Assembly: GCA_030655515.1 (NCBI GenBank) | Contig: JAURVI010000043.1 | Location: 1-64,000, forward strand | Source: Polaromonas sp. | Lineage (GTDB): Bacteria > Pseudomonadota > Gammaproteobacteria > Burkholderiales > Burkholderiaceae_C | Length of the DNA: 64,000 nucleotides | Direction: 5' to 3' | In this document: positions 10,648 to 27,702 of the stretch, one piece after another | Layout of the letters: each line of letters begins with the position of its first letter | How positions within the stretch are numbered: position 1 is the first letter of the stretch | Position numbers and translations under genes: made by a program | Notes under the pieces: generated by a model | The model's input: only the letters and a program-made list of their open reading frames with translations | What the model was told of the DNA's origin: nothing | Database searches by the model: none

Positions 10648-10743
10648 CTCGGGTTCGACCGGACGTTTCCGATCAATCACTTGCATTTTTTCTCTACCGT
10701 GAATTAAACTCGCTATCGAGAATAGCACCGGGAGCAACGATGA
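10648..10743 (+). promoter_or_regulatory. Duplicated promoter-like element, copy 2
   Basis: Second copy of the element at 1873-1968, collinear over 96 bases. The -35-like TTGCAT, the TTTTTTCTCTA spacer start and the CTCG-CTAT-CGAG inverted repeat (10709-10720) are all kept. It lies about 160 bases before the Bug receptor start, leaving room for a long leader. The changes cluster at the downstream edge, which suggests selection on the promoter/operator core. Confidence 0.6.
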
Positions 10744-10900
10744 GTAAAGATGTCTCTCGCCGGCGTCCGCGGAACATCGAGCTCGGCCTTCCTGTCGAAT
10801 GAACCGTTTCCCCTGGATGCCCCGACCGACGGATCGGGGCGCCTGCTTTCCCAAGTCCGTTCGCTTTGACCATCCACATTCACCACGAAGGAGACACCTT

Positions 10901-11893
10901 ATGAACCACTTCATCAACCGTTCGATGCTGCGCGCGCCGGCGATGGCGCTGCTGGCTGCGGCAAGCCTGCTCGCCATGCCCCGGGCGGCCCTGGCGCAGG
11001 CCTATCCCAGCAAGCCGATCACGTTCGTCGTGGCCTCCGTGCCAGGCGGCATCCTCGACACCGTGGGCCGCATCGTCGCGCGGGGTCTCGAGAAGATGGG
11101 GCAACCCGTCGTCGTGCAGAACATTCCCGGCGCCGGCAGCAGCCTGGGCACCGCAGCGGTGGCTGCGGCACCGGCCGACGGCTACACGGTCGGCATGGTC
11201 GCCACGAGCCACGCGATCAACCCGAGCGTCTACACCAAGCTGCCGTACGACACGAAGCGCGATCTGGCGCCCATTTCGCACTCGGTCAACCTCGTCAATG
11301 TGTTGGTGGTCCATCCGTCCGTGCCAGCCAACAACCTCAAGGAGTTCATCGAACTGGCCAAGCGAAAACCGGGAGAATTGACCTATGGTTCGGCCGGCAA
11401 CGGACAATCGAACCACCTGTCCGCAGAGATGCTGAAGACCGCCACCGGGATCAATCTCATCCACGTGCCGTACAAAGGCAGCGCAGCGGCGATGAACGAT
11501 GTTCTGGGGGGGGTTCTGACAGGCATGTTCGTCGACTCGCTCTCTTCCATGCCCCACGTGAAGGCCGGCAAGCTCAAGGCGCTCGCGGTCAGCAGCGACG
11601 CGCGTCTGCCGATCGCCCCCGAAATTCCCACCTTCGCCGAATCGGGCCTGCCCAACTTCAACGCCAACTCGTGGCTCGGCGTGGTCGGCCGCACCGGCAC
11701 GCCGCCGGAGGTGATCGCCAAGATCGGGGCCGCGGCCGCCCAGGTAATGCACGACCCCGAGGTGCGCCAGCGCCTGATTGCGATGGGTGTGCAGCCCGTC
11801 GGATCAACCCCTGAACAGTTCGCACGCTTTCTCGACGCCGAGATGCAGCGCTATGCCGCAGCGGTCAAAAGCGCAGGAGTGAAGCTTGACTGA
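10901..11893 (+). CDS. Bug-family periplasmic tricarboxylate-type receptor
   Basis: A 330-residue solute receptor of the TctC/Bug family. It has a signal peptide ending ALAQA, the mature start YPSKPITFVVASVPGG, and the family motifs GAGSSLGTAAVAAAPADGYT and YGSAGNGQSNHLSAE. Bug proteins bind carboxylic acids in the periplasm and hand them to TctAB-type carriers or act as sensors; no tctAB genes are in the window. AAGGAG precedes the ATG at 10901. The next gene starts inside its last codons, so receptor and acyl-CoA ligase are translationally coupled, which suggests that the ligand is the acid activated by that ligase. Confidence 0.9.
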   Translation: MNHFINRSMLRAPAMALLAAASLLAMPRAALAQAYPSKPITFVVASVPGGILDTVGRIVARGLEKMGQPVVVQNIPGAGSSLGTAAVAAAPADGYTVGMVATSHAINPSVYTKLPYDTKRDLAPISHSVNLVNVLVVHPSVPANNLKEFIELAKRKPGELTYGSAGNGQSNHLSAEMLKTATGINLIHVPYKGSAAAMNDVLGGVLTGMFVDSLSSMPHVKAGKLKALAVSSDARLPIAPEIPTFAESGLPNFNANSWLGVVGRTGTPPEVIAKIGAAAAQVMHDPEVRQRLIAMGVQPVGSTPEQFARFLDAEMQRYAAAVKSAGVKLD

Positions 11894-13994
11894 ATTCCAA
11901 GCCAGTACCCCCGCGCTCACATCTCGCCTGTCGGCGGTGCTCAACGCCCGCAGCGTTGCCATCGTCGGCGCGTCGGCCGATCCGGGCAAGATCACCGGCC
12001 GGCCGCTCGCCTACATGCTTGCCCGCGGATACGCGGGCAAGCTCTACCCGGTGAATCCTTCGCGCAGCGAAGTTCAGGGCCAGCGCAGCTACCCATCGCT
12101 CAGCGCCATCGGCGAGCCGGTGGACCTGGCCATCATCGGAACCGGCGCGGAGCAGGTCGAAAGCGTGATTGCCGAAGGCATCGCCGCTGGCGTGAAGGCC
12201 TTCGTGGTGTTTTCTTCCGGCTTCGCCGAGACCGGCGACGAAGGCCGCGCGCTTCAGCGGCGGCTGAGCGTGCTGGCGCGCGCCAACTCGGTCGCCATCC
12301 TCGGCCCGAATTGCCTGGGCCTGGCCAACAGCGCCACCGGTCTGATCGCCTCGTTCACGACCGCGCTGGAAGAGACGCCGCTCAAGCGCGGCGGTTTTTC
12401 CCTGGTGAGCCAGAGCGGCGCACTGGGCGCCTACTGGCTCGACATCGTGCTTCGCTCGGGTCTGGGCTTCAGCCAGTGGATCAGCACGGGCAATGAATGC
12501 GATGTCGATGCCGCCGAGGCGATCGACTGCCTGGTCGACGACCCGCAGACGCGCGTCATCGGACTCTACATCGAGGATATCCACGACACCCTGGCCTTTC
12601 GCCGCGCCCTGCAACGGGCCGCCGCCGCGAACAAGCCGGTGATCGCCATCAAGTCCGGCCGTTCGCAGGCCGGCGCGCAGGCGGCCGCATCGCATACCGG
12701 CGCGCTCGCCGGCGACGACGCGCTGTACGACGCCTGCCTGCTTCAGTACGGCGCGCTGCGTGTCGACTCGCTATCGGCCATGATCGACGCCGCGCGCCTG
12801 TTTCTGTTCGACAGCGTACCGCCCGGACCCCGCCTGGCCGTGATGTCGGTGTCGGGTGGCGCGGGGGTGTTGATCGCCGACGAAGCCGAGGCTTTGCGGC
12901 TCACCGTGCCGGCGTTCACCGACACGACCTTGCGCTCGCTCGCGCCGGTGCTGCCGTCCTTCATGCGTCCCGCCAATCCGCTCGACCTCACGGGCAATGT
13001 GGTGCAAAACACCGCCAGCATCTCGCAGGCGCTGCAGGCCGTGGCCGACGATCCCGGGATCGACGTGATCGTGCTGTTCGTCGGCATGATGCACAGTATC
13101 GCGAGCGCCTTCACCGACGCACTCGCCGCGGCGCGCCAGCGCATCCATCGGCCCATCGTGGTGATCTGGATGGGCGCGATGGAATCGACGGTGGCCACAT
13201 TGGAGGCCGCCCGCATCCCGGTGTTCCTGGACATTCCCCAGGCCATGCAGGCCCTGGCCACCGCCATTCGCGTGGACGCTCTTCAGCGCGCGGCGCGAAC
13301 GGCCAGCCTGCCCTCGAAGCGCCCGGCAGGCGCGGCCGCCACGCGCCGCGTGCTCACCGAATGGGACGGCAAGCAGTTGCTGCGCACGCAGCAGGCCGTC
13401 GGGCTGCCAGAGGGCGTTCTGGTGCCGCCCGCCACCTCAGCAAAGCCGCTCACAAAATCCCTGAACTACCCCGTTGCCGCGAAACTGCAGGCGTCGGCGC
13501 TCACGCACAAGAGCGATGTCGGCGGCGTGGTGCTGCGCATCGGTTCGGATGAGGCGCTGGCTGACGCCGTGGACCGACTCAATGCCGTGGGCCGCGCCCT
13601 GCAGGTCGAGTTGCAGGGCGTGCTTGTCGAGCAGATGATTCCCTTCGATCACGAGTTGTTGCTCGGTTTGCGCCGCGATCCGCGTTTCGGCGAGGTGCTG
13701 ACCCTCGCGCGCGGCGGCGTGGAGGTCGAACTGGACGCGGATGCGCTCACGCGCCTGTTGCCGCTTGACGCGGCGCAGGTCGAGGCGATGCTGCGCGGTC
13801 TTCGCTCGGCCCGCCTGCTCGACGGTTTTCGCGGTCGCCCGGCGGCTGACATTCCCGCCGTGGCCAGACGCATCGCCAAGCTCTGCGACTGGTTTCTTGC
13901 CAACGAAGCGCTGGAAGAAATCGAGATCAACCCACTCGCCGTGCGAGGCAGTGACGTCTGGGCGCTTGACGCACTGGTCACGCAAGGCGCGTGA
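11886..13994 (+). CDS. ADP-forming acyl-CoA synthetase (acetate-CoA ligase family)
   Basis: A 702-residue single-chain NDP-forming acyl-CoA ligase. It has an N-terminal CoA-binding domain (SVAIVGASADPGKITGRP, 23-40), succinyl-CoA ligase-like domains with the phospho-histidine loop SHTGALAGDD (His270), and a C-terminal ATP-grasp domain (about 480-700) ending EIEINPLAV. These enzymes make acyl-CoA from acid, CoA and ATP, giving ADP and phosphate. The start is TTG at 11886: AGGAG lies 6 bases upstream and no ATG occurs for over 40 codons. It overlaps the Bug gene by 8 bases. Substrate unknown; pimeloyl- and aryl-propionyl-type acids are used by relatives. Confidence 0.9.
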   Translation: MTEFQASTPALTSRLSAVLNARSVAIVGASADPGKITGRPLAYMLARGYAGKLYPVNPSRSEVQGQRSYPSLSAIGEPVDLAIIGTGAEQVESVIAEGIAAGVKAFVVFSSGFAETGDEGRALQRRLSVLARANSVAILGPNCLGLANSATGLIASFTTALEETPLKRGGFSLVSQSGALGAYWLDIVLRSGLGFSQWISTGNECDVDAAEAIDCLVDDPQTRVIGLYIEDIHDTLAFRRALQRAAAANKPVIAIKSGRSQAGAQAAASHTGALAGDDALYDACLLQYGALRVDSLSAMIDAARLFLFDSVPPGPRLAVMSVSGGAGVLIADEAEALRLTVPAFTDTTLRSLAPVLPSFMRPANPLDLTGNVVQNTASISQALQAVADDPGIDVIVLFVGMMHSIASAFTDALAAARQRIHRPIVVIWMGAMESTVATLEAARIPVFLDIPQAMQALATAIRVDALQRAARTASLPSKRPAGAAATRRVLTEWDGKQLLRTQQAVGLPEGVLVPPATSAKPLTKSLNYPVAAKLQASALTHKSDVGGVVLRIGSDEALADAVDRLNAVGRALQVELQGVLVEQMIPFDHELLLGLRRDPRFGEVLTLARGGVEVELDADALTRLLPLDAAQVEAMLRGLRSARLLDGFRGRPAADIPAVARRIAKLCDWFLANEALEEIEINPLAVRGSDVWALDALVTQGA

Positions 13995-14052
13995 GGATGG
14001 CGGCGCAATGGTTTGCCGTAAAGTGGCGCCAGAAACACTTCTAAGCATAAAA

Positions 14053-14841
14053 ATGACAACAGCCCCCGTTCCCGAAAAACTCGTCGGCGCCCTGAGCAGC
14101 GGCCTCGCTGTGCTACGCTACCTTTCAGCCGCCTCCACACCGATGGGAATGAGTCGGATCGCGCGCGATCTGGAACTCAATTCAAGCACCTGCTTCAATC
14201 TGTTGAAGACACTGGTTCACGAACGACTCGTGACATTCGATGATTCCACGAAAACCTACACCATCGGCCTGGGCGTCGTGGAGCTCGCCAAAGGCGCGCT
14301 GGAACAGACCTCCTACGTGCGCATGCTGCGCCCCCACTTGGACGAACTCGCGATCCGGCACCGCATCACGGCCACGCTGTGGCACCGCACCATTGACGAG
14401 CGGGTCATCCTCCTGGACCGTGCGGACAACGCTTCGGCGATGCGTGTACACATGAGCATCGGCCAGCGCCTGCCTATGTATGTCGCGGCCCTGGGGCGAT
14501 GCATGGCGGCCCACTCCGGCCTGAGCGCAGCGGAGCTTCGCTCTCGCTTTAGCGGGCTGCGCTGGGAAGAGGGTCTGAGCTTCGATAAATACCTCTCCGA
14601 AGTCAAGGAGGCACGCAAGCTCGGCTACGCGGTCGACGCAGGCCACTTCGTGAGAGGGGTGACGACGGTTTCCACGGCCGTACTCGACAGCCCTGGCCAC
14701 CCCATCATGGCCATCAGCGCCGTCGGCTTCAGTGCCCAGTTCACCAAAACGGCGATCAAGGCCCTGGGAGAAGACCTGCGAGACCGTGCCGCGGAAATTT
14801 CGCGTGCGATGTCGGGGCGAAAGGTGCTCGCTACCGGCTAA
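14053..14841 (+). CDS. IclR-family transcriptional regulator
   Basis: A 262-residue regulator with an N-terminal winged helix-turn-helix (about 15-65, GMSRIARDLELNSSTCFNLL) and a C-terminal IclR ligand-binding domain (about 80-255). IclR proteins typically control aromatic or carboxylic acid catabolism. The start is uncertain: ATG at 14053 gives a typical length, while an in-frame ATG at 14008 would add 15 residues. It follows the ADP-forming ligase by 58 bases and runs convergently into a second IclR gene. Confidence 0.85.
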   Translation: MTTAPVPEKLVGALSSGLAVLRYLSAASTPMGMSRIARDLELNSSTCFNLLKTLVHERLVTFDDSTKTYTIGLGVVELAKGALEQTSYVRMLRPHLDELAIRHRITATLWHRTIDERVILLDRADNASAMRVHMSIGQRLPMYVAALGRCMAAHSGLSAAELRSRFSGLRWEEGLSFDKYLSEVKEARKLGYAVDAGHFVRGVTTVSTAVLDSPGHPIMAISAVGFSAQFTKTAIKALGEDLRDRAAEISRAMSGRKVLATG

Positions 14842-14871
14842 TCTGTCCCCACAAAGCCAACGGACCCGAGT

Positions 14872-15621
14872 TTATTGCGACAGTTGCCGCGACAAAAGAC
14901 TGCATGTCGCCACCAGCAACTTCGCACATTCCCCCAGGCAGCCCTCCATGCGATGCCGCGGACCGGCCACGGCCACGGCCAGCGTCTCCTTGTTGATGCT
15001 GAGGAAAGCCGCCACGGCCCACACGTCGTCCACATTTTCGCCTCGCGTCACGAAGTAGCCGGCGCGGCGACTCTGCAGGATGTCGTCGATCAAGGCTTGC
15101 GGGTCGGTGATCGTCGCCTCGGTGATCCTGGCCAGTGGCCGGCCTTCCAGCCAACTGCGCAGCTCCGGCTCCTTGAGACTGCCGAGCAAGGCCTTGCCGA
15201 TCGAACTCGACGTCAGGGGTTTGATGTCGCCCGGCCTGGCCGAGTAGCGGATGGAATGCAAGCCCTCGACGACCTGCAGGTAGACCACCGTGTCGCCTTG
15301 CCGCTTGCCGAGAATGACGGTCTCACGCGATGCGTCGCGCAGTCGCTCAAGCAGCGGCGTGGCCCGCTCGATGAAAGGATCCTTCTCATGAATGTCACGC
15401 GCCACGTCGTACAGGCGCTTGGTCGGGTACAGCGCGCGCGGGCGGGTGAGGGAGTAGAGATAGCCGCGCGCCGTCAGTGTCGTAATGATCGCGTGGCAGG
15501 TGCTCTTCGGGATGTTGGCCGCCTCGGCCAGATCCGTCAGGGACAGCGGCCGCTGGCTGGCCTGGAACGCTTCGAAGATGTCGATGAGTCGCTCGATTGC
15601 CGTCACGTTGACTCCGGACAT
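14872..15621 (-). CDS. IclR-family transcriptional regulator, divergent to mutase operon
   Basis: A 249-residue IclR protein: winged HTH at about 5-60 (LTDLAEAANIPKSTCHAII) and a ligand-binding domain to the end. The start is taken at MSGVNVTAIERL (15621), preceded by AAAGG; the 16-residue upstream extension is weaker. It is transcribed away from the crotonase-mutase operon, and the 170-base gap contains palindromes of the IclR-operator type, so it is the likely regulator of that operon and of itself. Confidence 0.88.
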   Translation of the reverse strand: MSGVNVTAIERLIDIFEAFQASQRPLSLTDLAEAANIPKSTCHAIITTLTARGYLYSLTRPRALYPTKRLYDVARDIHEKDPFIERATPLLERLRDASRETVILGKRQGDTVVYLQVVEGLHSIRYSARPGDIKPLTSSSIGKALLGSLKEPELRSWLEGRPLARITEATITDPQALIDDILQSRRAGYFVTRGENVDDVWAVAAFLSINKETLAVAVAGPRHRMEGCLGECAKLLVATCSLLSRQLSQ

Positions 15622-15711
15622 GAGGATGCCTTTCTCCAAGGGGATGATGAAATTCAACCTGCTGAACAAACTGCTTTGAAAGACGTATTTCAGCCCTGAC
15701 CAACCTTGTTT

Positions 15712-15735
15712 GTTCGAAATATGGAACAGTTGTTC
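15712..15735. promoter_or_regulatory. Putative IclR operator
   Basis: Two overlapping inverted repeats: GTTC-N8-GAAC (15712-15727) and GAAC-AGTT-GTTC (15724-15735). They lie between the divergent iclR gene and the crotonase-mutase operon. The spacing and TTCxxx...GAA character resemble operators of IclR-family regulators. Confidence 0.5.
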
Positions 15736-15792
15736 TTGTAATGGAAATTATGCCATTTTAGTATGCGTGCAACTGAAGGGAACTATCAAGGC

Positions 15793-16572
15793 ATGCAAAC
15801 AGGCAAAGACATCCGGGTCGAGGAACGCGCCCCCGGCGCGTGGTGGGTGACGATTGATCGGGTACACAAGCACAACGCCCTCGCGCGCAGCGTTTTGCAA
15901 GAGCTGAGAGAGGCGGTGAGCTCGGCCGCCGCAGCGCCGGATGCGCGTTTTATTGTGTTGTCCGGCGCCGGGGACCGCTACTTCGCGGCCGGGGGGGATC
16001 TTGTGGATCTGGCCAGTGTCCGCGACGAGCAGGCCACGCTCGACATGAGCAACGAAGCACGCGCCGCCCTGGATGCGGTGCGCCATTGCCCGGTGCCGGT
16101 GCTGGCCTACCTCAACGGCGATGCGATCGGCGGTGGCGCCGAGCTGGCGTTGGCTTGCGACATGCGGCTGCAAGGAGCGAAAGCCCGCATCGGTTTCGTT
16201 CAGGCCAAGCTGGCCATCACGTCGGCCTGGGGCGGCGGACCGGACCTTTGCCAACTGGTCGGCGCCGCCCGTGCGATGCGAATGATGTCGCGCGGCGAAC
16301 TCGTTGACGCCCCGCAGGCGATGGCGTGGGGCCTGGCCGACGCCGTCATCGGCGAGAACTCGGCCAGCGCGGACCTGCAGGCCTTCCTCGCCCCCCTGCT
16401 GGCCTGTCCGCCGCAGGTGCTGCGCGGCATCAAGGCGCAAACGCGGGCCTGGCGGCAGAACCTGCCTTATGCCGAACGCCGTTCCATCGAGCAGCAGCAG
16501 TTGCTCAAGACCTGGCTCCATGAGGATCACTGGCGCCTCTCTGAAAAACTTCTGTCCAAAGGAAAACCATGA
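15793..16572 (+). CDS. Crotonase-fold protein, possible malonyl-CoA-type decarboxylase
   Basis: A 259-residue enoyl-CoA hydratase/isomerase-fold enzyme. The oxyanion-hole segments FAAGGDL (64-70) and GGGAEL (113-118) are present, with Glu117 at the first acid position. The second hydratase glutamate is replaced by Gln136 in GFVQAKLAITSAWGGG. That segment reminds me of the FVxKxMGIxPSWGG stretch of ethylmalonyl-CoA decarboxylase (ECHDC1), so a decarboxylase is at least as likely as a hydratase. It opens the operon with the B12 mutase, overlapping it by four bases. The ATG at 15793 follows AAGG; an ATG ten codons upstream lacks a site. The decarboxylase assignment is inference. Confidence 0.8.
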   Translation: MQTGKDIRVEERAPGAWWVTIDRVHKHNALARSVLQELREAVSSAAAAPDARFIVLSGAGDRYFAAGGDLVDLASVRDEQATLDMSNEARAALDAVRHCPVPVLAYLNGDAIGGGAELALACDMRLQGAKARIGFVQAKLAITSAWGGGPDLCQLVGAARAMRMMSRGELVDAPQAMAWGLADAVIGENSASADLQAFLAPLLACPPQVLRGIKAQTRAWRQNLPYAERRSIEQQQLLKTWLHEDHWRLSEKLLSKGKP

Positions 16573-18191
16573 GCAGCAGCAACCGTGCGGCCGCGACGGC
16601 CGCAGAGCCGCAACTCCTGCCCGTGACCCGCAGCGGCATCGAGGTACCCACCTGTGTCGATGCCTCGGCCGTCAACGCAGAGCACATCGGCGCGCCGGGC
16701 GAGTACCCGTTCACGCGCGGCATCTTTGCCGACGGCTACCAGGGCCGCCTCTGGACCATCCGGCAATATTCGGGGTTCGGAACAGCCGAAGAATCCAACG
16801 AGCGCTACAAATTCCTGCTGGCGAAAGGACAGACAGGGCTCTCGGTGGCGCTGGATTTGCCGACGCAGTGCGGATTTGACCCCACCCACCCGATGGCCAG
16901 GCCGGAGATTGGCAAAGTGGGCGTCTCGCTCTCCAATCTGAGCGAAGCCGAAATCCTGTTCGCGGGGCTCGATCTCTCGAAAATCTCCACCTCTTTCACC
17001 ATCAACGGCACGGCGGCCATCATCTATGCCATGTACCTGGCGGTGGCCGACAAGCAGAATGTGCCGCGCAGCAAGCTCACCGGCACCATCCAGAATGACA
17101 TTCTCAAGGAGTACGTGGCGCGCGGCACCTGGATCTTCCCGGTCCGCCCGTCGATGCGCTTGATCGCCGACTCGATTCTCTATTCCAACGACGTTTCGCC
17201 CCGATTCAACCCGATCAGCATTGCCGGTGCGCACGTGCGCGACGCCGGCGCCACCGCCGCGGAAGAGATGGCCTATACGCTGGCCAACGGTCTGGCCTAT
17301 GTCGAGGAGTTGCGCGCGCGCGGCGGCGACGTGGAGAAATTCGCCAAGCGCCTGTCTTTTTTCTTTTACGTCCACATGGACTTCTTCGAGGAAATCGCGA
17401 AGTTCCGTGCCGGCCGGCGGCTGTGGGCGCGCTTCATGAAGGAGCGCTACGGCGTGCAGGACCCCAAGGCTCAGCACTTTCGCTTCGGCGTGGTCTGCGG
17501 TGGCTCGTCGCTGGTGGCGCCGCAGCCGTACAACAACGTGGCGCGCGTGGCGGTGGAAACCATGGCCGCGGTGTTCGGGGGGGCGCAGTCGATCTTCACT
17601 TGCGCTTTCGACGAGGCCTTTCAGATTCCCACCGAATTTTCCGCGGAGCTGGCGGTGCGCACGCAGCAAATCATTGCTTTCGAGAGCGGCATCGGCCGTT
17701 CCGTCGATCCGCTGGGCGGCAGCTACTTCCTGGAACAGCACACCGACCGCATGGAGGACAAGATCAGCGAGGTAATGGCCGAGATCGACGCCTACGGTGG
17801 CGTGATCCGGGCCATTGAGGACGGGTGGATCCAGATGCGTCTGGCCGAGCGCGGGCTGGAGCGCAAGCTCGACACCGATTCGGGCCACAACGTGATCGTG
17901 GGTCAAAACCACTTCAAGAAACCCAACGAAGAAATCAAGGTCGGCGAGGTTTTCATGCTCGACCCGACGGTCGCGCAACGCGCGCTCGATAAATTCCAGC
18001 GCGTACTCGACACACGCCAGCAGTCAGCGGTCGATGCCGCGCTGGCGAAGCTGGCCGTCGTCGCCGCCAAGGACCGCGAGAACGTCATGCCCTACCTCGT
18101 GGCGTGCTGCCATGCCTATGCCACGGTCGGGGAAATGGTGGCCTGCCTGAAAAAGGAATGGGGCGAATTCAAGGAGCCAGTCAATCTATGA
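16569..18191 (+). CDS. B12-dependent acyl-CoA mutase, large (catalytic) subunit
   Basis: A 540-residue alpha subunit of the methylmalonyl-CoA mutase family, catalytic barrel only, without the cobalamin-binding domain that the next gene supplies. With P. shermanii MutB as guide (constant offset 22), the substrate-carboxylate residues are kept: Tyr67 (Y89) in IRQYSGFGT, Arg185 (R207) in VARGTW, and His222 (H244). 2-Hydroxyisobutyryl-CoA mutase instead has Ile and Asp; here the Asp position is Ala94. This points to an acyl-CoA with a free carboxylate (methylmalonyl/succinyl type or a substituted version), not a 2-hydroxyacyl-CoA. The reaction is a carbon-skeleton rearrangement by adenosylcobalamin. 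Start ATG overlaps the crotonase stop. Confidence 0.9.
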   Translation: MSSSNRAAATAAEPQLLPVTRSGIEVPTCVDASAVNAEHIGAPGEYPFTRGIFADGYQGRLWTIRQYSGFGTAEESNERYKFLLAKGQTGLSVALDLPTQCGFDPTHPMARPEIGKVGVSLSNLSEAEILFAGLDLSKISTSFTINGTAAIIYAMYLAVADKQNVPRSKLTGTIQNDILKEYVARGTWIFPVRPSMRLIADSILYSNDVSPRFNPISIAGAHVRDAGATAAEEMAYTLANGLAYVEELRARGGDVEKFAKRLSFFFYVHMDFFEEIAKFRAGRRLWARFMKERYGVQDPKAQHFRFGVVCGGSSLVAPQPYNNVARVAVETMAAVFGGAQSIFTCAFDEAFQIPTEFSAELAVRTQQIIAFESGIGRSVDPLGGSYFLEQHTDRMEDKISEVMAEIDAYGGVIRAIEDGWIQMRLAERGLERKLDTDSGHNVIVGQNHFKKPNEEIKVGEVFMLDPTVAQRALDKFQRVLDTRQQSAVDAALAKLAVVAAKDRENVMPYLVACCHAYATVGEMVACLKKEWGEFKEPVNL

Positions 18192-18604
18192 ACACCCTAC
18201 AGGCCAACGCTTCGCTAGCCGGCAAGCGGATACTCATCGGAAAGCCCGGACTCGACGGGCACGACATTGGCGCCAAGATCATCGCGTTGACACTGCGCAA
18301 TGCCGGCGCCGAGGTCATCTACACCGGCCTGCGGCGCAGCCCGCTTCAGATTGCGCAGGTGGCGGTCGACGAAGGCGTGGATGCGGTGGGCTTGAGCATC
18401 CTGTCGGGCAGCCACAAGGAACTGGTGGGCGACGTCATGGCGCAGTTGCGCCAGCTCAGGGCCGAAGACATCAAGGTGTTCGTCGGTGGCACGATTCCGG
18501 CGGAAGATCAGCCGCACCTGCGCCAGTTGGGTGTGGCGGCGGTTTTCACGGCAGACATGCCGCTGGAGGATGTGGTGACTATTCTCGCGAAGAGCCTGGC
18601 ATGA
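18188..18604 (+). CDS. B12-binding small subunit of acyl-CoA mutase
   Basis: A 138-residue cobalamin-binding domain with the DxHxxG motif (Asp23-Gly-His25-Asp-Ile-Gly28), whose His ligates cobalt from below, and the later SILSGSH and FVGGTIP segments that line the nucleotide tail pocket. Its length matches small subunits of split mutases such as HcmB. It overlaps the large subunit by four bases (ATGA), as expected for a stoichiometric partner, and the CoA-transferase gene by four bases at the other end. Confidence 0.93.
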   Translation: MNTLQANASLAGKRILIGKPGLDGHDIGAKIIALTLRNAGAEVIYTGLRRSPLQIAQVAVDEGVDAVGLSILSGSHKELVGDVMAQLRQLRAEDIKVFVGGTIPAEDQPHLRQLGVAAVFTADMPLEDVVTILAKSLA

Positions 18605-19728
18605 ACGCACCCCTCGAAGGCATCCGCGTCATTGAGGTCGGGCACATGCTGGCAGGCCCCTACTGCGGCCTGATGCTGGCCGACATGGGGGCGGAAGTCA
18701 TCAAGATCGAGCCTCCGGAAGGGGATATCGGACGCTCGGTCAGTCCGCATTTCATAGGACCGCACAACGCTTACTTCGCCAGCCTCAATCGCAACAAGAA
18801 GAGTGTGGTGATTGACCTGGCCAGCGTTGAAGGCCAGGAGGCGCTGGGCCGCATCGTGAAGGACTCTCACGCGCTGGTGACCAATCTTCGGCCTTCTGCG
18901 ATCCGCAAGCTGGGCTTGACCTACGCGGCCCTGCGCCAATGGAATGAGCGCCTTGTTTGTGTTGCTTTGACGGGCTATGGGCTGGAAGGCCCGTATTCAG
19001 ACAGCCCGGCCTACGATTATGTAATCCAGGCCATCACGGGGGTGATGTCGCTCACCGGCGATCCTGCCGCGCCGCCGACCAAGGCCGGCTACTCGGCGGT
19101 CGACAATTCGGCCGGGCTGGTGGCCGTGATCGGGTTGCTTGCAAAAATCGTACAGGGCCAAGGAGGACAGGTGGACGTGGCCATGTATGACGTGATGCTT
19201 TCGCAGCTCAATTATCTGGCGGGCGCGGCACTCAATACGGGTGACGTGATCGAGCGGATGGCCAATTCGTCCCACCCCTATGTCGTTCCCGCGCAGATTT
19301 TTCCGACGGCGGCCGGCTGGCTGACGCTGTTCATCACGCACGACAAGTTCTGGCAGAAGTTCTGCAACGAAATCGGACGCCTCGAATGGATTGCCGATCC
19401 TGTCTTCGCCACCATGAGCAGCCGCCGCGTCAATCGGGTCGAGGTCGTCGCCCGTATTGCGGAAGTGCTGCAGGGCGCCACGGCAGCGCAGTGGGTTGCC
19501 CGTCTCGCGCCGCTTGGCGTCGTCGCCGCCGAAGTCGGCACCCTGAGCGATGCCTTGCAGAGCGACCTCACGCGCTCCCGCGCCATGGTGACCACGCTGG
19601 GTGACGGCAGCCTGCCGTTGCGCGCAGTCGCCAGCCCCATCAGGTTCGAAGGCTATTCGCCGCAGTACGGGTTGCCGCCGCTGCTCGACGAGCATCACTC
19701 CGTGGCCCTTCGGAGGGCGCCTGCATGA
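18601..19728 (+). CDS. CaiB/BaiF family III CoA-transferase
   Basis: A 375-residue family III CoA-transferase. It has the N-terminal GIRVIEVGHMLAGPYCGLML motif, SLNRNKKSVVIDL, and the catalytic aspartate Asp168 in SAVDNSAGL, matching Asp169 of formyl-CoA transferase. It moves CoA between two acids through an aspartyl mixed anhydride. In this operon it probably loads the dicarboxylic substrate of the mutase using CoA from an operon product, the role played by ScpC (propionyl-CoA:succinate CoA-transferase) in the E. coli sbm operon. It is coupled by ATGA overlaps on both sides. Confidence 0.9.
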   Translation: MNAPLEGIRVIEVGHMLAGPYCGLMLADMGAEVIKIEPPEGDIGRSVSPHFIGPHNAYFASLNRNKKSVVIDLASVEGQEALGRIVKDSHALVTNLRPSAIRKLGLTYAALRQWNERLVCVALTGYGLEGPYSDSPAYDYVIQAITGVMSLTGDPAAPPTKAGYSAVDNSAGLVAVIGLLAKIVQGQGGQVDVAMYDVMLSQLNYLAGAALNTGDVIERMANSSHPYVVPAQIFPTAAGWLTLFITHDKFWQKFCNEIGRLEWIADPVFATMSSRRVNRVEVVARIAEVLQGATAAQWVARLAPLGVVAAEVGTLSDALQSDLTRSRAMVTTLGDGSLPLRAVASPIRFEGYSPQYGLPPLLDEHHSVALRRAPA

Positions 19729-20663
19729 ACAGGCCGCCGCTTGATCGCCGCAAGCTGGGACAGGCCTTGACCCGGCTCGCCAATGCGAGCGCGGCAGAGT
19801 TGATGGCGCGTCCTTTGCGCGATCCGCCGGAGGTACTCGCCCGCCGGATCGGCATGACAGGCGCACCCGGCGCGGGCAAGAGCACCTTGCTCGGGCATCT
19901 CGCGCTGCATCGCGCCCGGGATCATCGCCGCCTCGGCATCCTGGCGGTCGATCCCAGCAGCCCCAAAAGCGGTGGTGCCATTTTGGGCGACCGGATCCGC
20001 ATGGATGAACTCGCAGGCGCATCGGAACTGTACATCCGCTCGCTCGGCTCCCGCACCACGTCGGACGGCCTGGCGGACAACCTGCCCGAGATGCTGGATG
20101 CGATGGATGATTTCGGGTTTGCCGAGGTGATGCTGGAGACGGTCGGCGTCGGCCAGGCCGAATACGCCGCCCGGCTGCAGGTGGACACCCTGGTGCTCGT
20201 GCTGCTGCCCGAAAGCGGCGACACGGTGCAGGCCATGAAGGCCGGCATCATGGAGATGGCGGACATCTTCGTGGTCAACAAGGCGGACTTGCCGGGCGCG
20301 CAGAGGATGGCCAGCGACGTCAAGCGCATCGCCGCCCTCAACCGCCATGAAAGCGGCGCCTGGGTTCCCCCCGTCCTGCTGGCCTCGGCAACGCAGCCCG
20401 AGTCGGTCAAGGCGCTGTCCGAGGCGATAGACCGGCACCAGGCGTGGCTCTCGGCGGGGCCGCGGCGAGATGTGCTGCGCCAGCAAAGAGTCTGCTACCG
20501 GCTCCAGAGAATTCTTGAAACTCGCACCGCAGAAATACTGGCGCGGCAAGACGCCAGCTTCTTCGAGGCGTCCCCGGAGCGCCAGTTGGAGCTCCTTCTC
20601 GAAATGCTGCGAAAAAACGCAGCTTCACCTCAAACCAGGAGACAGACATGGCTACATGGATAA
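19725..20663 (+). CDS. MeaB/ArgK-type G-protein chaperone of B12 mutase
   Basis: A 312-residue G3E GTPase that protects and reloads B12-dependent mutases with cofactor. It has the P-loop GAPGAGKST (about 45-53), the MeaB signature DPSSPKSGGAILGDRIRM, ETVGVGQAE and the base-specific NKAD. The old name ArgK (arginine kinase) is misleading. Its place directly after the mutase subunits and CoA-transferase supports a chaperone role for this mutase. It overlaps both neighbouring genes. Confidence 0.92.
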   Translation: MNRPPLDRRKLGQALTRLANASAAELMARPLRDPPEVLARRIGMTGAPGAGKSTLLGHLALHRARDHRRLGILAVDPSSPKSGGAILGDRIRMDELAGASELYIRSLGSRTTSDGLADNLPEMLDAMDDFGFAEVMLETVGVGQAEYAARLQVDTLVLVLLPESGDTVQAMKAGIMEMADIFVVNKADLPGAQRMASDVKRIAALNRHESGAWVPPVLLASATQPESVKALSEAIDRHQAWLSAGPRRDVLRQQRVCYRLQRILETRTAEILARQDASFFEASPERQLELLLEMLRKNAASPQTRRQTWLHG

Positions 20664-21613
20664 AAAAACTTGCTCTATTGGCAGGGATGCTGGCGGTTTC
20701 GGCCGCCGCGGCTGCGCAGGGTTTCCCGAACAAACCGGTGCGGATTATCGTCCCGCAAACGCCAGGAGGCGCCTCCGATACCCTGGCGCGCATCGTTGGT
20801 CAAAAACTCAGCGAAAAATGGGGGCAGCCCGTGGTCATTGAAAACCGCGCGGGCGCGGGAGGCAACGTGGGCATGGAGGTGGTGGCGTCGTCGCCGCCGG
20901 ACGGCTACACGCTGCTCATGAGCTACGTCGGAACCCAGGCGATCAATGGAGCGCTCTACAAGAAGCTGTCATTCGATCCGGGCAAGGACTTCGCGCCGGT
21001 CGCCACGCTGGCCACGCTCCCCTTCGTCATCGTGAGCAAACCGGATGCGCCGTTCAAGACGGTGCCCCAGCTTGTCGATGCGGCCAAAACGGAACGCCTC
21101 ACTTATGGATCTGCCGGCAACGGTTCCGTCAACCACCTGCTCGGAGAGATGTTCAATGCGGCGGCGAAGGTGAAGCTCGTTCATGTGCCGTACCGTGGCG
21201 CAGCGCCCGCGTTACAGGATTTGATGGGCGGGCAAATCAATGTGGTCTTCACCAGCCTTCCTTCGGTTGCCGGCTTCCTCAAGAACGGAACGCTTCACCC
21301 GATCACAGTCACGAGCCGCAAGCGGGCGGCAGCGTTTGGCAATATCCCGACCATTGAGGAAGCGGGTATCGCGAACTTTGACGTCAATCCCTGGTTCGGC
21401 CTGATGGCGCCAGCGAAGACACCCCGCGAAGTCATCGTCAAGATCAACCAGGACGTCAACACCCTTCTTGGCTCGAAGGAGATCGCCGACAACTTCGCCG
21501 CCCAAGGGGCCGAGGTTTACCGGACCCAGCCGGAAGAATTCGCAGCCAAACTCAGTGCGGACATCGTGACGTGGACAGAGGTGGTCAGGTCATCGGGCGC
21601 ACAGGTGGACTGA
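20648..21613 (+). CDS. Bug-family periplasmic receptor at the end of the mutase operon
   Basis: A 321-residue TctC/Bug receptor with a signal peptide (MATWIKKLALLAGMLAVSAA, cleaved after AAAAQ) and motifs PQTPGGASDTLARIVG and YGSAGNGSVNHLLGE. The start lies inside the end of the MeaB gene (16-base overlap) after AGGAG. As the last gene of the operon it probably binds the carboxylic acid that the mutase pathway uses. No membrane carrier (tctAB) is adjacent, so the carrier must be elsewhere. Confidence 0.9.
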   Translation: MATWIKKLALLAGMLAVSAAAAAQGFPNKPVRIIVPQTPGGASDTLARIVGQKLSEKWGQPVVIENRAGAGGNVGMEVVASSPPDGYTLLMSYVGTQAINGALYKKLSFDPGKDFAPVATLATLPFVIVSKPDAPFKTVPQLVDAAKTERLTYGSAGNGSVNHLLGEMFNAAAKVKLVHVPYRGAAPALQDLMGGQINVVFTSLPSVAGFLKNGTLHPITVTSRKRAAAFGNIPTIEEAGIANFDVNPWFGLMAPAKTPREVIVKINQDVNTLLGSKEIADNFAAQGAEVYRTQPEEFAAKLSADIVTWTEVVRSSGAQVD

Positions 21614-21625
21614 GCAATGTCGCGT

Positions 21626-21654
21626 GCGCCAATAAAAAATTGATTGGCGCGTTT
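21626..21654 (+). terminator. Terminator of mutase operon
   Basis: A perfect 8-bp stem GCGCCAAT (21626-21633) / ATTGGCGC (21643-21650) with a 9-base A-rich loop, followed by GTTTT. It sits 12 bases after the Bug stop and before the convergent azlD. Confidence 0.65.
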
Positions 21655-21696
21655 TGCGCATCCCAGTCTCGCGCGCGGGCCACCGCCGGGGAATGG

Positions 21697-22035
21697 TTAC
21701 CAATTGCCCAGGAACGTTAGCAATCCCACCAGCGCCACTCCGCCAAATACCACCGCCGCCAAGCTCCGAGTCCAGACCGCCAGCAACAATGCGACGATGA
21801 TCCCGTGAAGATAATAGTCGGATATGCCTGTATTCAGTACCCCTCCACGTAAAAAAGTGGATTGGGCCACCAAGGCGGAAAGGATGCCAATTGGCAGATA
21901 CTGCAGGAATCTTTTCAATAAGGGCCTCAGGCGCCGTCCGCTCAGCAACACTATCGGCAAATAGCGGATGCCGAAGGTGAGCAGCGCTGTTCCCACGATC
22001 ATCGGCAGCACCATCTCACCGTTTGTCACAGTCAC
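21697..22035 (-). CDS. azlD: AzlD-family branched-chain amino acid transport protein
   Basis: A 112-residue membrane protein with four hydrophobic segments, typical of AzlD, the small partner of AzlC in export of branched-chain amino acids and analogues. It overlaps azlC by 20 bases. It ends the minus-strand operon that also contains a CoA-transferase and a MeaB-like gene, an unusual context that may point to export of a related short acid or amine. Confidence 0.85.
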   Translation of the reverse strand: MTVTNGEMVLPMIVGTALLTFGIRYLPIVLLSGRRLRPLLKRFLQYLPIGILSALVAQSTFLRGGVLNTGISDYYLHGIIVALLLAVWTRSLAAVVFGGVALVGLLTFLGNW

Positions 22036-22750
22036 CTCCTTCCGGGATCAGGAGCCCAGCTACAGCCCCCCCCAAAGCACCGACGATGGCGCAAATCTGG
22101 GGTGGCCAGAACACGGTAAGCCCTAACCCCAAGGCCACCGAAACGATAGCCACCAGAAACCCGCTCCAGCGGCTTGCACGTACCAAGGGGGCTACCATTC
22201 CGAGAAACGCCACAGGCACAGCGAAACCGAGGACTGGAGTCCACGCGGCAGGCACTAGGGGACCGAGCCATACCCCAAAAAACGTGAACAACACCCATTG
22301 AGCCCATTGGCAAAACTGGGTCGCCAGTCCGTAAGCCTGCACATTTTCGCCTCTGGCAGCTTTGGCGGGCAGCAGCCCTATCGAAGAAGTAGAAAGGGTG
22401 AATCCCAGCAGCGGCATTGCCCGGCGCGTCACGCCGCCGAGATACGGCGCTATGCCCATGGCGATGAGGCCATGGCGGGCATTGGCCATGAAGGTGATGA
22501 TCAACAGCTCGATCATCCCGGCTCCCGTCGTCAACGCGCTCAGACAAGCCAATTGGGCAGAGCCCGCGAAAATGACAGCCGACCAAAGGATAATCTCCCA
22601 CTCTGCGAGGCCGGCTATTTTCGCGGCGATGGCGTAGGCAATCGCAAGTGGCAGATAGAGGGGTATGAACAACAGGCCGTCGCGAATGCCTTCCACAACA
22701 TCCGAGATTCGATGCGAACTGGACACCATCATTGGGCCATCTTTGCTCAA
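22016..22750 (-). CDS. azlC: AzlC-family branched-chain amino acid transport protein
   Basis: A 244-residue inner-membrane protein of the AzlC/YgaZ family (about 7-8 helices; GIRDGLLFIPLYLPLAIAYA near the start, MANARHGLIAMGIAPYL in the middle). With AzlD it exports branched-chain amino acids in B. subtilis and E. coli. The start is TTG at 22750 inside the stop of the CoA-transferase (TTGA overlap), with AAGGAG six to seven bases upstream; a later ATG at codon 7 is possible. The coupling shows that it belongs to one operon with the CoA-transferase. Confidence 0.85.
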   Translation of the reverse strand: MSKDGPMMVSSSHRISDVVEGIRDGLLFIPLYLPLAIAYAIAAKIAGLAEWEIILWSAVIFAGSAQLACLSALTTGAGMIELLIITFMANARHGLIAMGIAPYLGGVTRRAMPLLGFTLSTSSIGLLPAKAARGENVQAYGLATQFCQWAQWVLFTFFGVWLGPLVPAAWTPVLGFAVPVAFLGMVAPLVRASRWSGFLVAIVSVALGLGLTVFWPPQICAIVGALGGAVAGLLIPEGGDCDKR

Positions 22751-23943
22751 CGGATGACTCCTTGGCCCCGCAATGCCACGATCTTTTCCCTTGAATAGGC
22801 GAGCAAACCCGCCAGAACCTCCTCGGTATGTTGGCCGAGAAGAGGCGGTGAAGCGTAGACAGTATCCTTGTCCGGCATCTTGATGGGATTGCCGAGCGTC
22901 CGGAACGTCCCGGCGACCGGATGAGGAACGTTGACGATCATGTTGCGTGCCTTGACTTGTGGGTGTTCCAACCCCTCGGCAAGGGTGTTAATTGGCGATG
23001 AAGGCACCCCTTCCAGAGCCAAGGCATCGAGCCAATAGTCTGAGGGCTTAGTTTTGAGCAGGGGAATCAATAAATCCAGTAGTTCCTGCTTATGTGTTAA
23101 TCGGTTCGCAGAAGACGAAAATCTCGGGTCATCGGCCCACTCCGGCTTGCCAATGGCCCGACAGGTGGCACACCAGAATTTTTCCGTAAGAGACATCAAT
23201 ACGATATACCCGTCAGCGGTTTCGAAGTTCTGGACGGGGACGTAGGCCGGATGCCCGGAAGCGGAAATCTTCTTCGGAACGTCGCCGGCGTTCAAGTAAA
23301 ATCCTGCCACGTAGGTGAAAAGGGAAAGGATGCTGTCGAGCAACGCCACATCGGAGAGCTGACCAGTGCCCTTGCGCTCTTTTTGCACCAACGATGCCAG
23401 GATCGCAATTACCGCATACAGCCCCCCCACATGGTCCACCACCGAGATACCGGTCTTCTCCGGCGGGGTGCCAGGCTCGCCGGCTAGACTCATGAGTCCG
23501 CTGATACCCTGCATGATGTAATCGTAACCGGGACGATCCGAGAACGGTCCGGTCATACCAAACCCCGACAGGGAACAGCAGATGATGTCGGGTTTGATCA
23601 GGCGCAACTTGGCGTGGTCAATCCCCAGCCTTTCGGTAACCCCAGGTCGAAAATTGTCGAATACCACATCAGCGTTCCGAACCAGGTCAAGAAACACCTC
23701 GCGGCCTTGCTCCTTTTTCAAGTCCAGGGTAATGCTCTTCTTGTTGCGGTTGAGCGAGAGAAAGTAGACGCTCTCTCCGTCCATGAAATGCGGCGGCGTT
23801 TTGCGCGCTTCCTCCAAGTGGGTAGGATGTTCAATACGGATCACCTCCGCCCCCAGGTCGCCCAAAATCATTGATGCGAACGGCCCCGCCAGGAAATGCG
23901 TCAAGTCCAGAATCCTGATCCCCGATAACGGCAACGCTGACAT
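22747..23943 (-). CDS. CaiB/BaiF family III CoA-transferase (second copy)
   Basis: A 398-residue family III CoA-transferase: GIRILDLTHFLAGPFASMIL at the N-terminus, SLNRNKKSITLDLKKEQG, and the catalytic Asp in ISVVDHVGGL. GGAGG precedes the ATG at 23943; a GTG two codons earlier is too close to that site. It lies 18 bases after the truncated MeaB-like gene and is coupled to azlC. The MeaB/CaiB pairing mirrors the pair at 18601-20663, but the sequences are clearly different, so it is not a recent duplication. Confidence 0.9.
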   Translation of the reverse strand: MSALPLSGIRILDLTHFLAGPFASMILGDLGAEVIRIEHPTHLEEARKTPPHFMDGESVYFLSLNRNKKSITLDLKKEQGREVFLDLVRNADVVFDNFRPGVTERLGIDHAKLRLIKPDIICCSLSGFGMTGPFSDRPGYDYIMQGISGLMSLAGEPGTPPEKTGISVVDHVGGLYAVIAILASLVQKERKGTGQLSDVALLDSILSLFTYVAGFYLNAGDVPKKISASGHPAYVPVQNFETADGYIVLMSLTEKFWCATCRAIGKPEWADDPRFSSSANRLTHKQELLDLLIPLLKTKPSDYWLDALALEGVPSSPINTLAEGLEHPQVKARNMIVNVPHPVAGTFRTLGNPIKMPDKDTVYASPPLLGQHTEEVLAGLLAYSREKIVALRGQGVIR

Positions 23944-23961
23944 AACCACCCTCCATTATCG

Positions 23962-24841
23962 CTATGCCAAATTGGCGATAGCGTTTAAAAATCGATCCAC
24001 CCCGATGCGGCGGCAAATCACTTGCGAAGCCAACTCCGCCAACTCCGGTCGGACCTTGAGGGTCTTCCAACGATTGATGAAATGGACGGACACCAAGTCC
24101 AGCAGTTCGCGCTCTTCCCGCAGCGCCCGCCTGACTTCCAGTTCACCCGTTTGACGCAGTTGCGCGGCATGGCGGTCGATGGCTCTCACCACTTCGCCGC
24201 TGCCGATATCCTTGTCCGCCTGGGCAGTGATGACCAGCGGCTCCCAAGGTCCCCGCTGTGCGGCAAGGCCCAGCATGACCCGCAGGGAGGATCTAAGCTC
24301 CTCGCTGCCGGGCCGATCCGCCTTGTTCACCACGAACACATCGGCGATTTCCATGAGGCCCGCCTTCATGGTCTGGATGCTGTCCCCCGCCTCCGGCACC
24401 AGCACCACCACCACCGTATCGACGGCCGTCATCACATCCAGCTCGGTCTGGCCCACCCCGACCGTCTCCACCAGGAGATAGTCAAAGCCGAACGCGCGCA
24501 TGAGCTTGAGCACGTCTTTCGTGGCAGGAGACAGTCCCCCGACACCGCCTCGGGTAGCAAGGCTGCGGATGAATACCCCCGAATCTAGATAGTGCCGCTC
24601 CATGCGAATCCGATCCCCGAGCATCGCCCCGCCGGAGAAAGGGCTGGTGGGATCCACGGCAATGATGCCGACCCGATGCCCTTCGCCTCTGAGCACCGCT
24701 GTGACAGCGTTCACCAAGGTGCTCTTGCCGGCCCCCGGGGGGCCGGTGAAACCGATCACGTGGCACTGAGACTGGGACTGAGCAAGGCTCTCGCCAATTC
24801 TCGAAAAAATGCTATTGCCTAATTCGGGGGATGTCTCCACC
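23962..24841 (-). pseudogene. MeaB/ArgK-type GTPase, N-terminus cut by IS21 element
   Basis: About 293 residues of a MeaB-type chaperone GTPase: P-loop GPPGAGKST, DPTSPFSGGAMLGDRIRM, ETVGVGQTE, NKAD, full C-terminus. The frame is intact but upstream of VETSPELGNSIF it runs into the inverted repeat of the IS21 element, so its native start is lost. On the far side of the element, minus-strand codons reading LRTLIEKTRAR look like the missing N-terminal helix. Only about a dozen residues are missing, and translation from a start in the IS end could still give a nearly whole protein. No second mutase gene is visible nearby. Confidence 0.75.
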
Positions 24842-25039
24842 TGTTGGCGCCGATTGAATATTGACCCACCCTGCCGATCCAATATTGACCCAGGGCGGGT
24901 TGCTGGTTTTTGAATCAGCAACTGTGGATAAGTGTACTCAATTGCTTGTTTTTGCTTTGTCTCCTTGTCTTTGATTGCGAGCAGGGGGAAATCCGCTACG
25001 GGCTACGCCCTTCGCTCCTTTCCCCCTGCTCGTGCGACC

Positions 25040-25867
25040 TCAGAACGGCGCGTCCGGCTCCTCGGTGGCGGGTGCCGCCTTGCTGTCTTTGCGGGCGCTT
25101 TCCCTGGCCTTGATGCGCGTCTTGGCGGCCATGCTGCTGTGTCGGAATCGATAGGACTCGTTGCCCGTCTCCACGATGTGGCAATGGTGGGTGAGCCGGT
25201 CCAGCAGCGCCGTGGTCATCTTGGCGTCGCCAAACACTGCCGACCATTCCGAGAAGCTCAGGTTGGTGGTGATCACCACGCTGGTGTGCTCGTACAGCTT
25301 GGAGAGCATGTGAAACAGCAAGGCACCTCCGGCCTGACTGAAGGGCAAATACCCCAGCTCATCAAGGATGACCAAGTCCATGCGCATCAGTGCCAAGGCG
25401 ATGCGCCCGGCTTTGCCCTCACGCTTTTCCTTCTCCAACTCATTGACCAAATCAACCGTGGAGTAAAAGCGTACCCGTTTGCCCTTGGAGGCAATGCCAG
25501 AGACCCCAATGGCGGTCGCCAGGTGCGTCTTGCCAGTGCCCGGCCCACCAATGAGAACGGCGTTTTGTGCCGTCTCGGTGAAGTCCAGTGTGCCCAATTG
25601 GCTGACCAGCTTTTGATCCACCTTGGAGGCTTCAAAGTCAAAGCCCGCCAAATCACGATGCAGTGGGAACTTGGCCGCCTTCATCTGGTGGCGTACCGAG
25701 GCAAAGGCCCGCTGTGCATGTTCAGCTTGCAGCAAATGCTCGATCAACCAACGGGAGGTTTGTACGCCCACATCGGTTGGCACTCCCTCTTGGGTCGTCA
25801 AGTCGGCCCAGGCTCCGGCCATGCCGTGCAGGCGCAGCTCTTTGAGCTCGGTTGTGATATCACGCAT
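25040..25867 (-). CDS. istB: IS21-family helper ATPase IstB
   Basis: A 275-residue AAA+ ATPase that helps the IstA transposase choose and engage target DNA. Walker [12 protein letters not shown], Walker [12 protein letters not shown], and the family stretch RFRHSSM near the end are visible. The start at 25867 ([15 protein letters not shown]) overlaps the istA stop by 8 bases. The length is normal, with a short charged C-terminal tail. It lies wholly within the insertion sequence. Confidence 0.93.
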
Positions 25868-27365: not shown

Positions 27366-27481
27366 GGTGATCACCTTGTTCGTCCCCTGCCCAAAATTTA
27401 GGCAAGGCAAGTAAAACACCTGGGTCAGTTTTGAATCGGCTCAATGGCCTAAAGTGGGTCAGTTTTCGGTCGGCGGCAACA

Positions 27482-27518
27482 CCCTGGCGCGCGTCTTCTC
27501 AATCAGGGTCCGCAAGAA
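27482..27518 (-). pseudogene. Possible 5' remnant of the IS-interrupted meaB-like gene
   Basis: Minus-strand codons directly flanking the IS right end read FLRTLIEKTRAR, preceded by an in-frame TAA (27519-27521). Joined across the element at a shared GG, the frame continues as ARVETSPELG of the MeaB-like gene. MeaB proteins usually start with a similar helix (such as ALARALTLIE). There is no ATG; a TTG codon would be the start. Short, so uncertain. Confidence 0.35.
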
Positions 27519-27657: not shown

Positions 27658-27702
27658 ATGGATACCTGTTTGACAAAGGTGGGGAAGCCCTTGTAGGGAA
27701 GC

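Follow-up and report, generated by a model that had tools for sequence, protein, structure and literature searches.

An operon around a split B12-dependent acyl-CoA mutase of a separate clade: a possible catabolic module for substituted succinates

Two described systems come closest to the locus reported here, the sbm operon of Escherichia coli (scpA-argK-scpB-scpC), whose CoA-transferase ScpC is a family I enzyme, and the iaa module of the indoleacetate route in Aromatoleum aromaticum. Formation of propionate from glucose through sbm has been described to need an epimerase (PMC5512728). The described iaa sequence of steps leads from the CoA-transferase IaaL, which can use succinate, through IaaGH, a phenylsuccinyl-CoA/benzylmalonyl-CoA mutase, to IaaF, an oxidising decarboxylase in which the motif YEG is replaced by GGG (PMC8360864), and the iaa CoA-transferase has been assigned to family III (PMC11659651). 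Here we describe a six-gene operon in a stretch of 64 kb of Polaromonas sp. DNA (the window; contig C46 in a draft genome of 2.65 Mb and 84.8% completeness), which encodes a crotonase, both subunits of a split B12-dependent mutase, a family III CoA-transferase, a MeaB-type chaperone and a Bug receptor. Going by sequence comparison, the operon may serve the catabolism of a substituted succinate taken up by the cell, a reading that in our estimate is evenly balanced between right and wrong.

The six genes are open frames on the plus strand, without internal stops, overlapping in series by 4 bases at four of the five junctions and by 16 bases at the MeaB/Bug junction. Each has a Pfam match over the curated cut-off, in operon order ECH_1, MM_CoA_mutase, B12-binding, CoA_transf_3, MeaB and TctC. 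They stand where the initial annotation had placed them, with the correction that the start it gave, 15793, is an internal ATG and the crotonase frame opens at 15763. No epimerase gene was found in the operon. Two further PF01642 proteins are encoded in the window genome; the tree described below places one of them with methylmalonyl-CoA mutase (MCM) rows and the other with IcmF rows.

In the proposed pathway, the Bug receptor, or other importers elsewhere, would capture the substituted succinate and the family III transferase would make the CoA thioester of the acid, succinyl-CoA and the product acyl-CoA, from which the initial annotation had proposed that CoA is returned, being equally possible as CoA donors. 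The B12 mutase, maintained by MeaB, would then shift the thioester carbon to the neighbouring carbon to give an alkylmalonyl-CoA, the crotonase would decarboxylate this to an acyl-CoA for ordinary beta-oxidation, and the IclR-family regulator would control the operon. Every reaction, the order of the reactions, the substrate and the regulation are what we infer from features read directly in the sequences, namely the gene set and its order, the separate clade of the mutase, its carboxylate pair and remodelled loop, the loss of hydratase residues in the crotonase and the aspartate of the transferase.

The phylogeny of the mutase was analysed with IQ-TREE on 51 mutase rows and with FastTree on 127 rows. 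In the IQ-TREE analysis the mutase belongs to a clade of its own with 17 rows and support of 100/99 (10 proteobacterial, 5 actinobacterial, L040 and L041). This clade is loosely grouped (81/98) with 2-hydroxyisobutyryl-CoA mutase (HCM), pivalyl-CoA mutase (PCM) and iaa-type rows, away from MCM and the putative ethylmalonyl-CoA mutase (ECM) rows and also apart from the IcmF rows; FastTree agrees with this placement. The iaa-type label of five Burkholderiales mutases (L145, L147, L149, L150 and L151) was given from the cluster of L145 alone (locus L152), which holds a GGG-bearing acyl-CoA dehydrogenase whose C-terminus, IAKEVTS, resembles the IAKEVSS encoded by the published iaaF primer, hydantoinase A and B proteins, the FAD subunit of a molybdenum enzyme and a family III transferase.

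The mutase falls in none of the established substrate clades tested. MCM and the present clade are separate, each with 100% bootstrap, and the MCM equivalog model PRK09426 gave 538.6 bits against a cut-off of 876, though this model spans the fused protein and a split enzyme scores low anyway. The ECM assignment was rejected by tree and residues, the two putative ECM rows grouping with MCM (94/89); ccr lies within 3 kb of one of them (L105) and on another contig from the other (L108). HCM rows carry Ile/Val89, Asp116 and Gln207 and form a separate clade, the pockets of isobutyryl- and pivalyl-CoA mutases have Phe/Leu89 and Gln/Asn207 where Tyr and Arg are found here, and the iaa-type rows, as putative representatives of IaaGH, again form a separate clade. 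Judged by these sequences, the clade is without a characterised member among those compared.

Active-site residues were compared in an alignment of 127 rows, of which 46 belong to this clade, one as a fragment (the alignment does not include the mutases of G355, G735 and G856). Tyr89, Arg207, Gln197 and His244 are kept in 45 of the 45 clade rows covering them. Tyr89 and Arg207, which bind the substrate carboxylate in MCM, are common to this clade and to the MCM, ECM and iaa-type rows. The adjoining loop has been remodelled. Position 328 is Gly in 46/46 clade rows, as in both putative ECM rows, position 330 is Val in 46/46 and position 334 is Ser or Ala in 46/46; Thr331 is also replaced, and Tyr243 has given way to Ala (44 rows) or Ser (1 row). 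His328, Gln330 and Trp334 are kept in all eight MCM rows. All 76 rows that belong neither to this clade nor to the iaa-type have Gln330, and the five iaa-type rows have Gly or Ala there. The summed side-chain volumes at sites 243, 328, 330–332 and 334 are 540 Å3 for this clade, 606 for iaa-type, 786 for PCM, 789 for HCM, 818 for ECM and 924 for MCM. Since the loss of Gln330 is found otherwise only in the five putative iaa-type mutases among the 127 compared, a substituted succinyl-CoA is pointed to; the residues would suit a dicarboxylyl-CoA that carries an additional substituent, and they argue against plain methylmalonyl-CoA. The substituted succinate suggested in the initial annotation is in so far consistent with the residues. 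For comparison, positions 328–334 read His-Ser-Gln-Thr-Ser-Gly-Trp in MCM of P. shermanii and form a glycine-rich loop, Ile-Ala-Gly/Ala-Gly-Gly-Gly-Gly, in the iaa-type rows.

The mutase scan of named genomes matched at least 590 stretches, from which the best 80 loci were kept. A plasmid collection gave seven records of more than 60% identity; five were fetched, and H2 and H3 (Paraburkholderia, 72.8%) stand outside the locus set. This set, to which the window belongs and in which duplicates of a locus count as one, comprises 23 distinct proteobacterial loci (alpha, beta and gamma). The full gene order, crotonase, mutase, B12 subunit, CoA-transferase, MeaB, was seen in 16 of them (window, L007, L009, L010, L011, L014, L015, L016, L017, L087–L091, L131 and L132), a recurrence that makes it more than chance. 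Among the incomplete loci, L008 (a contig of 4.5 kb) and L157 (at a contig end) are cut, and L130 has no MeaB at the module position. Thus, the mutase was found outside the established substrate clades tested and the gene order was found elsewhere, two of the points on which the initial annotation had let its proposal depend. The accompanying proteins are conserved as well: DxHxxG is present in 68/68 B12-subunit homologues examined, the Asp of the DNSxG motif, which we take to be the catalytic residue of family III CoA-transferases, in 37/37 relatives, and the MeaB motifs G..G.GKST and NKxD in 18 and 16 of 20 homologues, respectively.

The module is rare. Counting the window genome each time, it was found in 3 of 250 family genomes (E ≤ 1e-150), and in 2 of 399 order and 3 of 369 class genomes (E ≤ 1e-170); the order search repeated at 1e-135 added one fragment of the mutase clade, in G521. 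The mutase of the gammaproteobacterial genome G735 is 91% identical to that of the window, which makes recent horizontal transfer likely. Two copies of the module occur in Hydrogenophaga sp. 2FB. In the Halomonadaceae genomes G252 and G253 this mutase is the only PF01642 protein found, and so is no spare MCM in these two. In Marinobacter, the annotation places a cob(I)yrinic acid a,c-diamide adenosyltransferase 3′ of the module.

Beside the module, Bug receptors were found in the window, L007, L010, L087 and L131, TctA in L130, a DctM-type permease with an NMT1-type receptor in L015 (homologues also occur in L016 and L091), and, by annotation, TRAP sets in L088 and L091. That non-homologous importer families swap beside the same enzymes argues for an imported free carboxylate as the start of the pathway. 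An IclR gene is present at 14 of the 20 proteobacterial loci compared, in some on the same strand as the operon. The dyad pattern TGTTC-N8-GAA[CT][AG] is present in all seven intergenic regions inspected, which come from betaproteobacterial members of the 23 loci; L007, L010 and L131 have it twice. Within the window it occurs, on both strands, between the IclR and crotonase genes (Table 1), and at one more place, 16767. The dyad is a candidate IclR operator.

For the crotonase, 17 operon copies were aligned (those of L129, L130 and L132 not included). In rat enoyl-CoA hydratase numbering, the Glu144 position is Gln in 17/17 and the Glu164 position is Arg in 13, Gln in 2, Lys in 1 and Glu in 1. 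With these replacements, the crotonase is unlikely to be an ordinary hydratase. The initial annotation had named an ECHDC1-like segment in this protein; ECHDC1 is a crotonase with an "SWGG" stretch. The motif GGGAE, reported for ECHDC1 (PMC6717113), occurs in 16 of the 17 operon crotonases, that of the window among them; related hydratases have similar GGG.E stretches. Decarboxylation by the crotonase is plausible as the best guess from context. That it is instead a thioesterase, an isomerase or another non-decarboxylating enzyme, the product leaving otherwise, for example through an iaa-like decarboxylating dehydrogenase, is unlikely but deserves to be kept in view: crotonases are functionally diverse, and two acyl-CoA dehydrogenase genes lie 3′ of the operon in L014. 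Nevertheless, in 20 of the 23 loci the crotonase gene comes before that of the mutase, which makes a linked crotonase step likely, and no acyl-CoA dehydrogenase family was noticed in at least 3 of the 20 loci compared with a rough gene caller. The same comparison gave an aldehyde dehydrogenase family in 6 of the 20.

Several observations weigh against the proposed substituted-succinate pathway. In the mutase, Tyr289 and His291 partly refill the space, so that over 12 sites the contrast is smaller (MCM 1709, ECM 1679, HCM 1731, PCM 1460, iaa-type 1470 and this clade 1534 Å3), with the PCM rows more open than this clade; moreover, sites 243, 328, 330, 331 and 334 are presumed to line the pocket by analogy with MCM structures, not by computation, and the open-licence PMC literature yielded no useful paper that names the pocket residues. 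In the crotonase, the change at Glu164 is not diagnostic of decarboxylases, since ScpB, itself a decarboxylase, has Pro and Glu at the Glu144 and Glu164 positions. The identity to ScpB is only 24% over 178 residues, no close characterised relative was found, and the 50 listed PDB matches of the crotonase structure model are hydratases and other crotonases, giving no assignment; the structure models are of moderate confidence (mean pLDDT 73.7 and 73.4). In the gene neighbourhoods, no CoA-transferase separates B12 subunit and MeaB in L012, L013 and L129, and L128 yielded mutase, B12 subunit and MeaB alone, with no CoA-transferase beside the mutase and no crotonase. In the actinobacterial relatives neither crotonase nor MeaB lies in tandem with the mutase (a 36% crotonase is encoded on the opposite strand in L023), so the gene set is not universal to the mutase clade; a related CoA-transferase gene lies downstream in 22 of 24 of these relatives, and ligase and acyl-CoA dehydrogenase genes are present at many actinobacterial loci.

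Other substrates were weighed on the same evidence. A methylsuccinate route, with the ECM reaction run backwards from methylsuccinyl-CoA to ethylmalonyl-CoA and the crotonase giving butyryl-CoA, is rather improbable. Tyr89, Arg207 and the change of His328 to Gly are common to this clade and both putative ECM rows, and ECHDC1 has been reported to act on ethylmalonyl-CoA by decarboxylation (PMC8473548); on the other hand, Gln330 and Tyr243 are unchanged in the two ECM rows, which sit elsewhere in the tree, and a methyl group would not appear to require a loop as open as that of the clade. No publication pairing methylsuccinate degradation with a CoA mutase and a CoA-transferase was found in the open-licence PMC literature, which leaves absence from print unproven. 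An aryl-substituted succinate of the phenyl- or benzylsuccinate type, in a non-oxidative cousin of the indoleacetate route, appears quite doubtful: the loss of Gln330 is common to this clade and the iaa-type mutases, the identity to one of the latter is 44% and a family III transferase is in use, but the mutase stands in a separate clade, the window transferase is only 26% identical to that of L152, and, unlike in L152, no hydantoinase- or IaaF-like family was noticed among the families common to at least 3 of the 20 loci. Least of all do we expect a plain sbm-type cycle from succinate to propionyl-CoA with the CoA-transferase swapped, which would match the enzyme set of scpA-argK-scpB-scpC but has against it that the mutase lies outside the MCM clade with His328, Gln330, Tyr243 and Trp334 all replaced and that an MCM-type protein is encoded separately in the window genome.

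The substituted succinate of the proposed module might be narrowed further. A dedicated route for a quaternary-carbon succinate, 2,2-dimethylsuccinate, in which the mutases would be a B12 subclass undescribed in the papers searched and the mycobacterial relatives would be mislabelled as MCM, is a speculative and improbable extension. In such a route 2,2-dimethylsuccinate, for example from tert-butyl oxidation, would be CoA-activated beside the quaternary carbon and converted to isopropylmalonyl-CoA, as expected from the same radical chemistry, and then to isovaleryl-CoA. PCM interconverts pivalyl-CoA and isovaleryl-CoA, so by analogy the same product would be formed as PCM gives. This interconversion is also stated by a title in the reference list of PMC4428469.

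The linkage of the operon to Pcm-like genes hints weakly at 2,2-dimethylsuccinate, with isovaleryl-CoA as product. In Diaphorobacter sp. HDW4B (on a plasmid) and Hydrogenophaga sp. 2FB (on one contig) the operon lies about 10–11 kb from PcmA/PcmB-like genes, which show 65–68% identity to their Xanthobacter Py2 counterparts, with 2-oxoglutarate oxygenase-type and aldehyde dehydrogenase genes nearby that have homologues in L011. Against this compound, the two islands have neighbours in common and may represent a single lineage, no Pcm-like row was found among the mutases of the window genome, G251, G252 and G253, and PcmA was found in 9 of 250 family genomes, only one of them (G018) among the three with this operon. 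In the open-licence PMC literature no dimethylsuccinate mutase pathway appeared in the titles and abstract beginnings of the matches listed, and isopropylmalonyl-CoA and dimethylsuccinyl-CoA were absent among the matches listed.

Table 1. Coordinates of the operon and its upstream elements in the window
Feature	Position	Strand	Basis or remark
IclR-family regulator	14872..15669	-	divergent from operon; PF01614 and PF09339 over cut-off
Dyad TGTTCGAAATATGGAACA, candidate IclR operator	15711..15728		intergenic, IclR gene/crotonase gene
Crotonase-superfamily protein, 269 aa, predicted decarboxylase of substituted malonyl-CoA	15763..16572	+	PF00378 over cut-off
B12-dependent acyl-CoA mutase large subunit, 540 aa	16569..18191	+	PF01642 625 bits; tree; residues
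B12-binding small subunit, 138 aa	18188..18604	+	PF02310 and TIGR00640 over cut-offs (scanned from 18182)
Family III CoA-transferase, 375 aa	18601..19728	+	PF02515 362 bits, over cut-off
MeaB-type GTPase chaperone, divergent	19725..20663	+	PF03308 over cut-off; TIGR00750 229 bits against cut-off 240.75
Bug/TctC periplasmic receptor for carboxylate (predicted)	20648..21613	+	PF03401 234 bits

An Rfam scan of window positions 10000–30000 gave no match, so that no cobalamin riboswitch is present there at the gathering threshold. Downstream of the operon, the minus strand of 21697–27474 holds two small membrane-protein frames, AzlCD-like by eye, a second family III CoA-transferase (CaiB2, 22747–23949) and a second MeaB (MeaB2, 23962–24921). 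An IS21-type element (frames 25040–27419) sits at the start of the MeaB2 frame, and its terminal repeats (24849–24892 and 27421–27474) overlap the 5′ end of that frame. A partner mutase for the CaiB2/MeaB2 pair was not found in the window genome at its 84.8% completeness. In the plasmid collection MeaB2 had no match at E 1e-60 and CaiB2 only matches of less than 60% identity.

Some relatives of the mutase have other neighbours. In L128, of G735, mutase, B12 subunit and MeaB (7263–10243) are 91, 86 and 74% identical to those of the window and are surrounded by genes for two FMO/Baeyer-Villiger-like monooxygenases, a KstD/TcuA-like FAD-binding flavoprotein, a luciferase-like oxidoreductase and acyl-CoA dehydrogenases. 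An F420-type LLM oxidoreductase gene is present in 20 of the 23 actinobacterial loci compared (L019–L039, L042 and L065) and sits between B12 subunit and CoA-transferase in those inspected. As far as gene content tells, the G735 and actinobacterial neighbourhoods are a setting of alicyclic or branched compounds. L040 and L041, from a Nitrospinota genome and another bacterium, encode mutases of the same clade; the gene after the mutase resembles an aldehyde:ferredoxin oxidoreductase (Pfam check for L041 only), and in L041 the mutase is directly preceded by a crotonase that carries Gln at the site of Glu144.

Only a handful of substrates are known for B12 acyl-CoA mutases, and with this clade a further class would join them, probably a branched dicarboxylate beyond the reach of beta-oxidation. 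The clade combines a retained carboxylate site with an opened adjoining loop, in a conserved five-gene module with importer and regulator. Split mutases of this clade, probably including the published mycobacterial one, should not be annotated as MCM on family score alone. The latter, McmA2 of Mycobacterium marinum, is a split mutase in a region with P450 genes and was described as a second methylmalonyl-CoA mutase (PMC4428469). Going by its description, it probably belongs to the actinobacterial branch of this clade; the residues of the actinobacterial rows speak against methylmalonyl-CoA mutase function.

Among the other split mutases, HcmAB (PDB 4r3u) is likewise paired with a MeaB partner and is the best PDB match by sequence and fold. 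PcmAB of Xanthobacter Py2 has Leu89 and Asn207, without the carboxylate pair, and stands in a separate clade. HCM differs in the residues given above, and HCM operons use a CoA ligase (PMC7176365). An HCM-related cluster on a Sinorhizobium plasmid (L122) consists of B12 subunit, MeaB, mutase, crotonase and an AMP-binding ligase.

As the initial annotation had recognised, the locus shares with E. coli sbm a B12 mutase, a MeaB-type chaperone, a crotonase and a CoA-transferase in one operon; it differs in the family III transferase and in having its own receptor and IclR gene, and the sbm mutase is one fused MCM-type chain while the mutase here is split and of another clade. The iaa module resembles the proposal in a transferase acting on a substituted succinate, a split mutase and CO2 loss (PMC8360864), and the iaa-type mutases, like this clade, have lost Gln330 and kept Tyr89 and Arg207. 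Here a crotonase stands where iaa has the decarboxylating dehydrogenase IaaF, and the window mutase is in a separate clade from the putative iaa-type mutase of L152, to which it is 44% identical. By analogy with both precedents, sbm and iaa, the logic of transferase, mutase and CO2 loss is already known, and on this comparison the iaa pathway, which the initial annotation missed, is the closer precedent.

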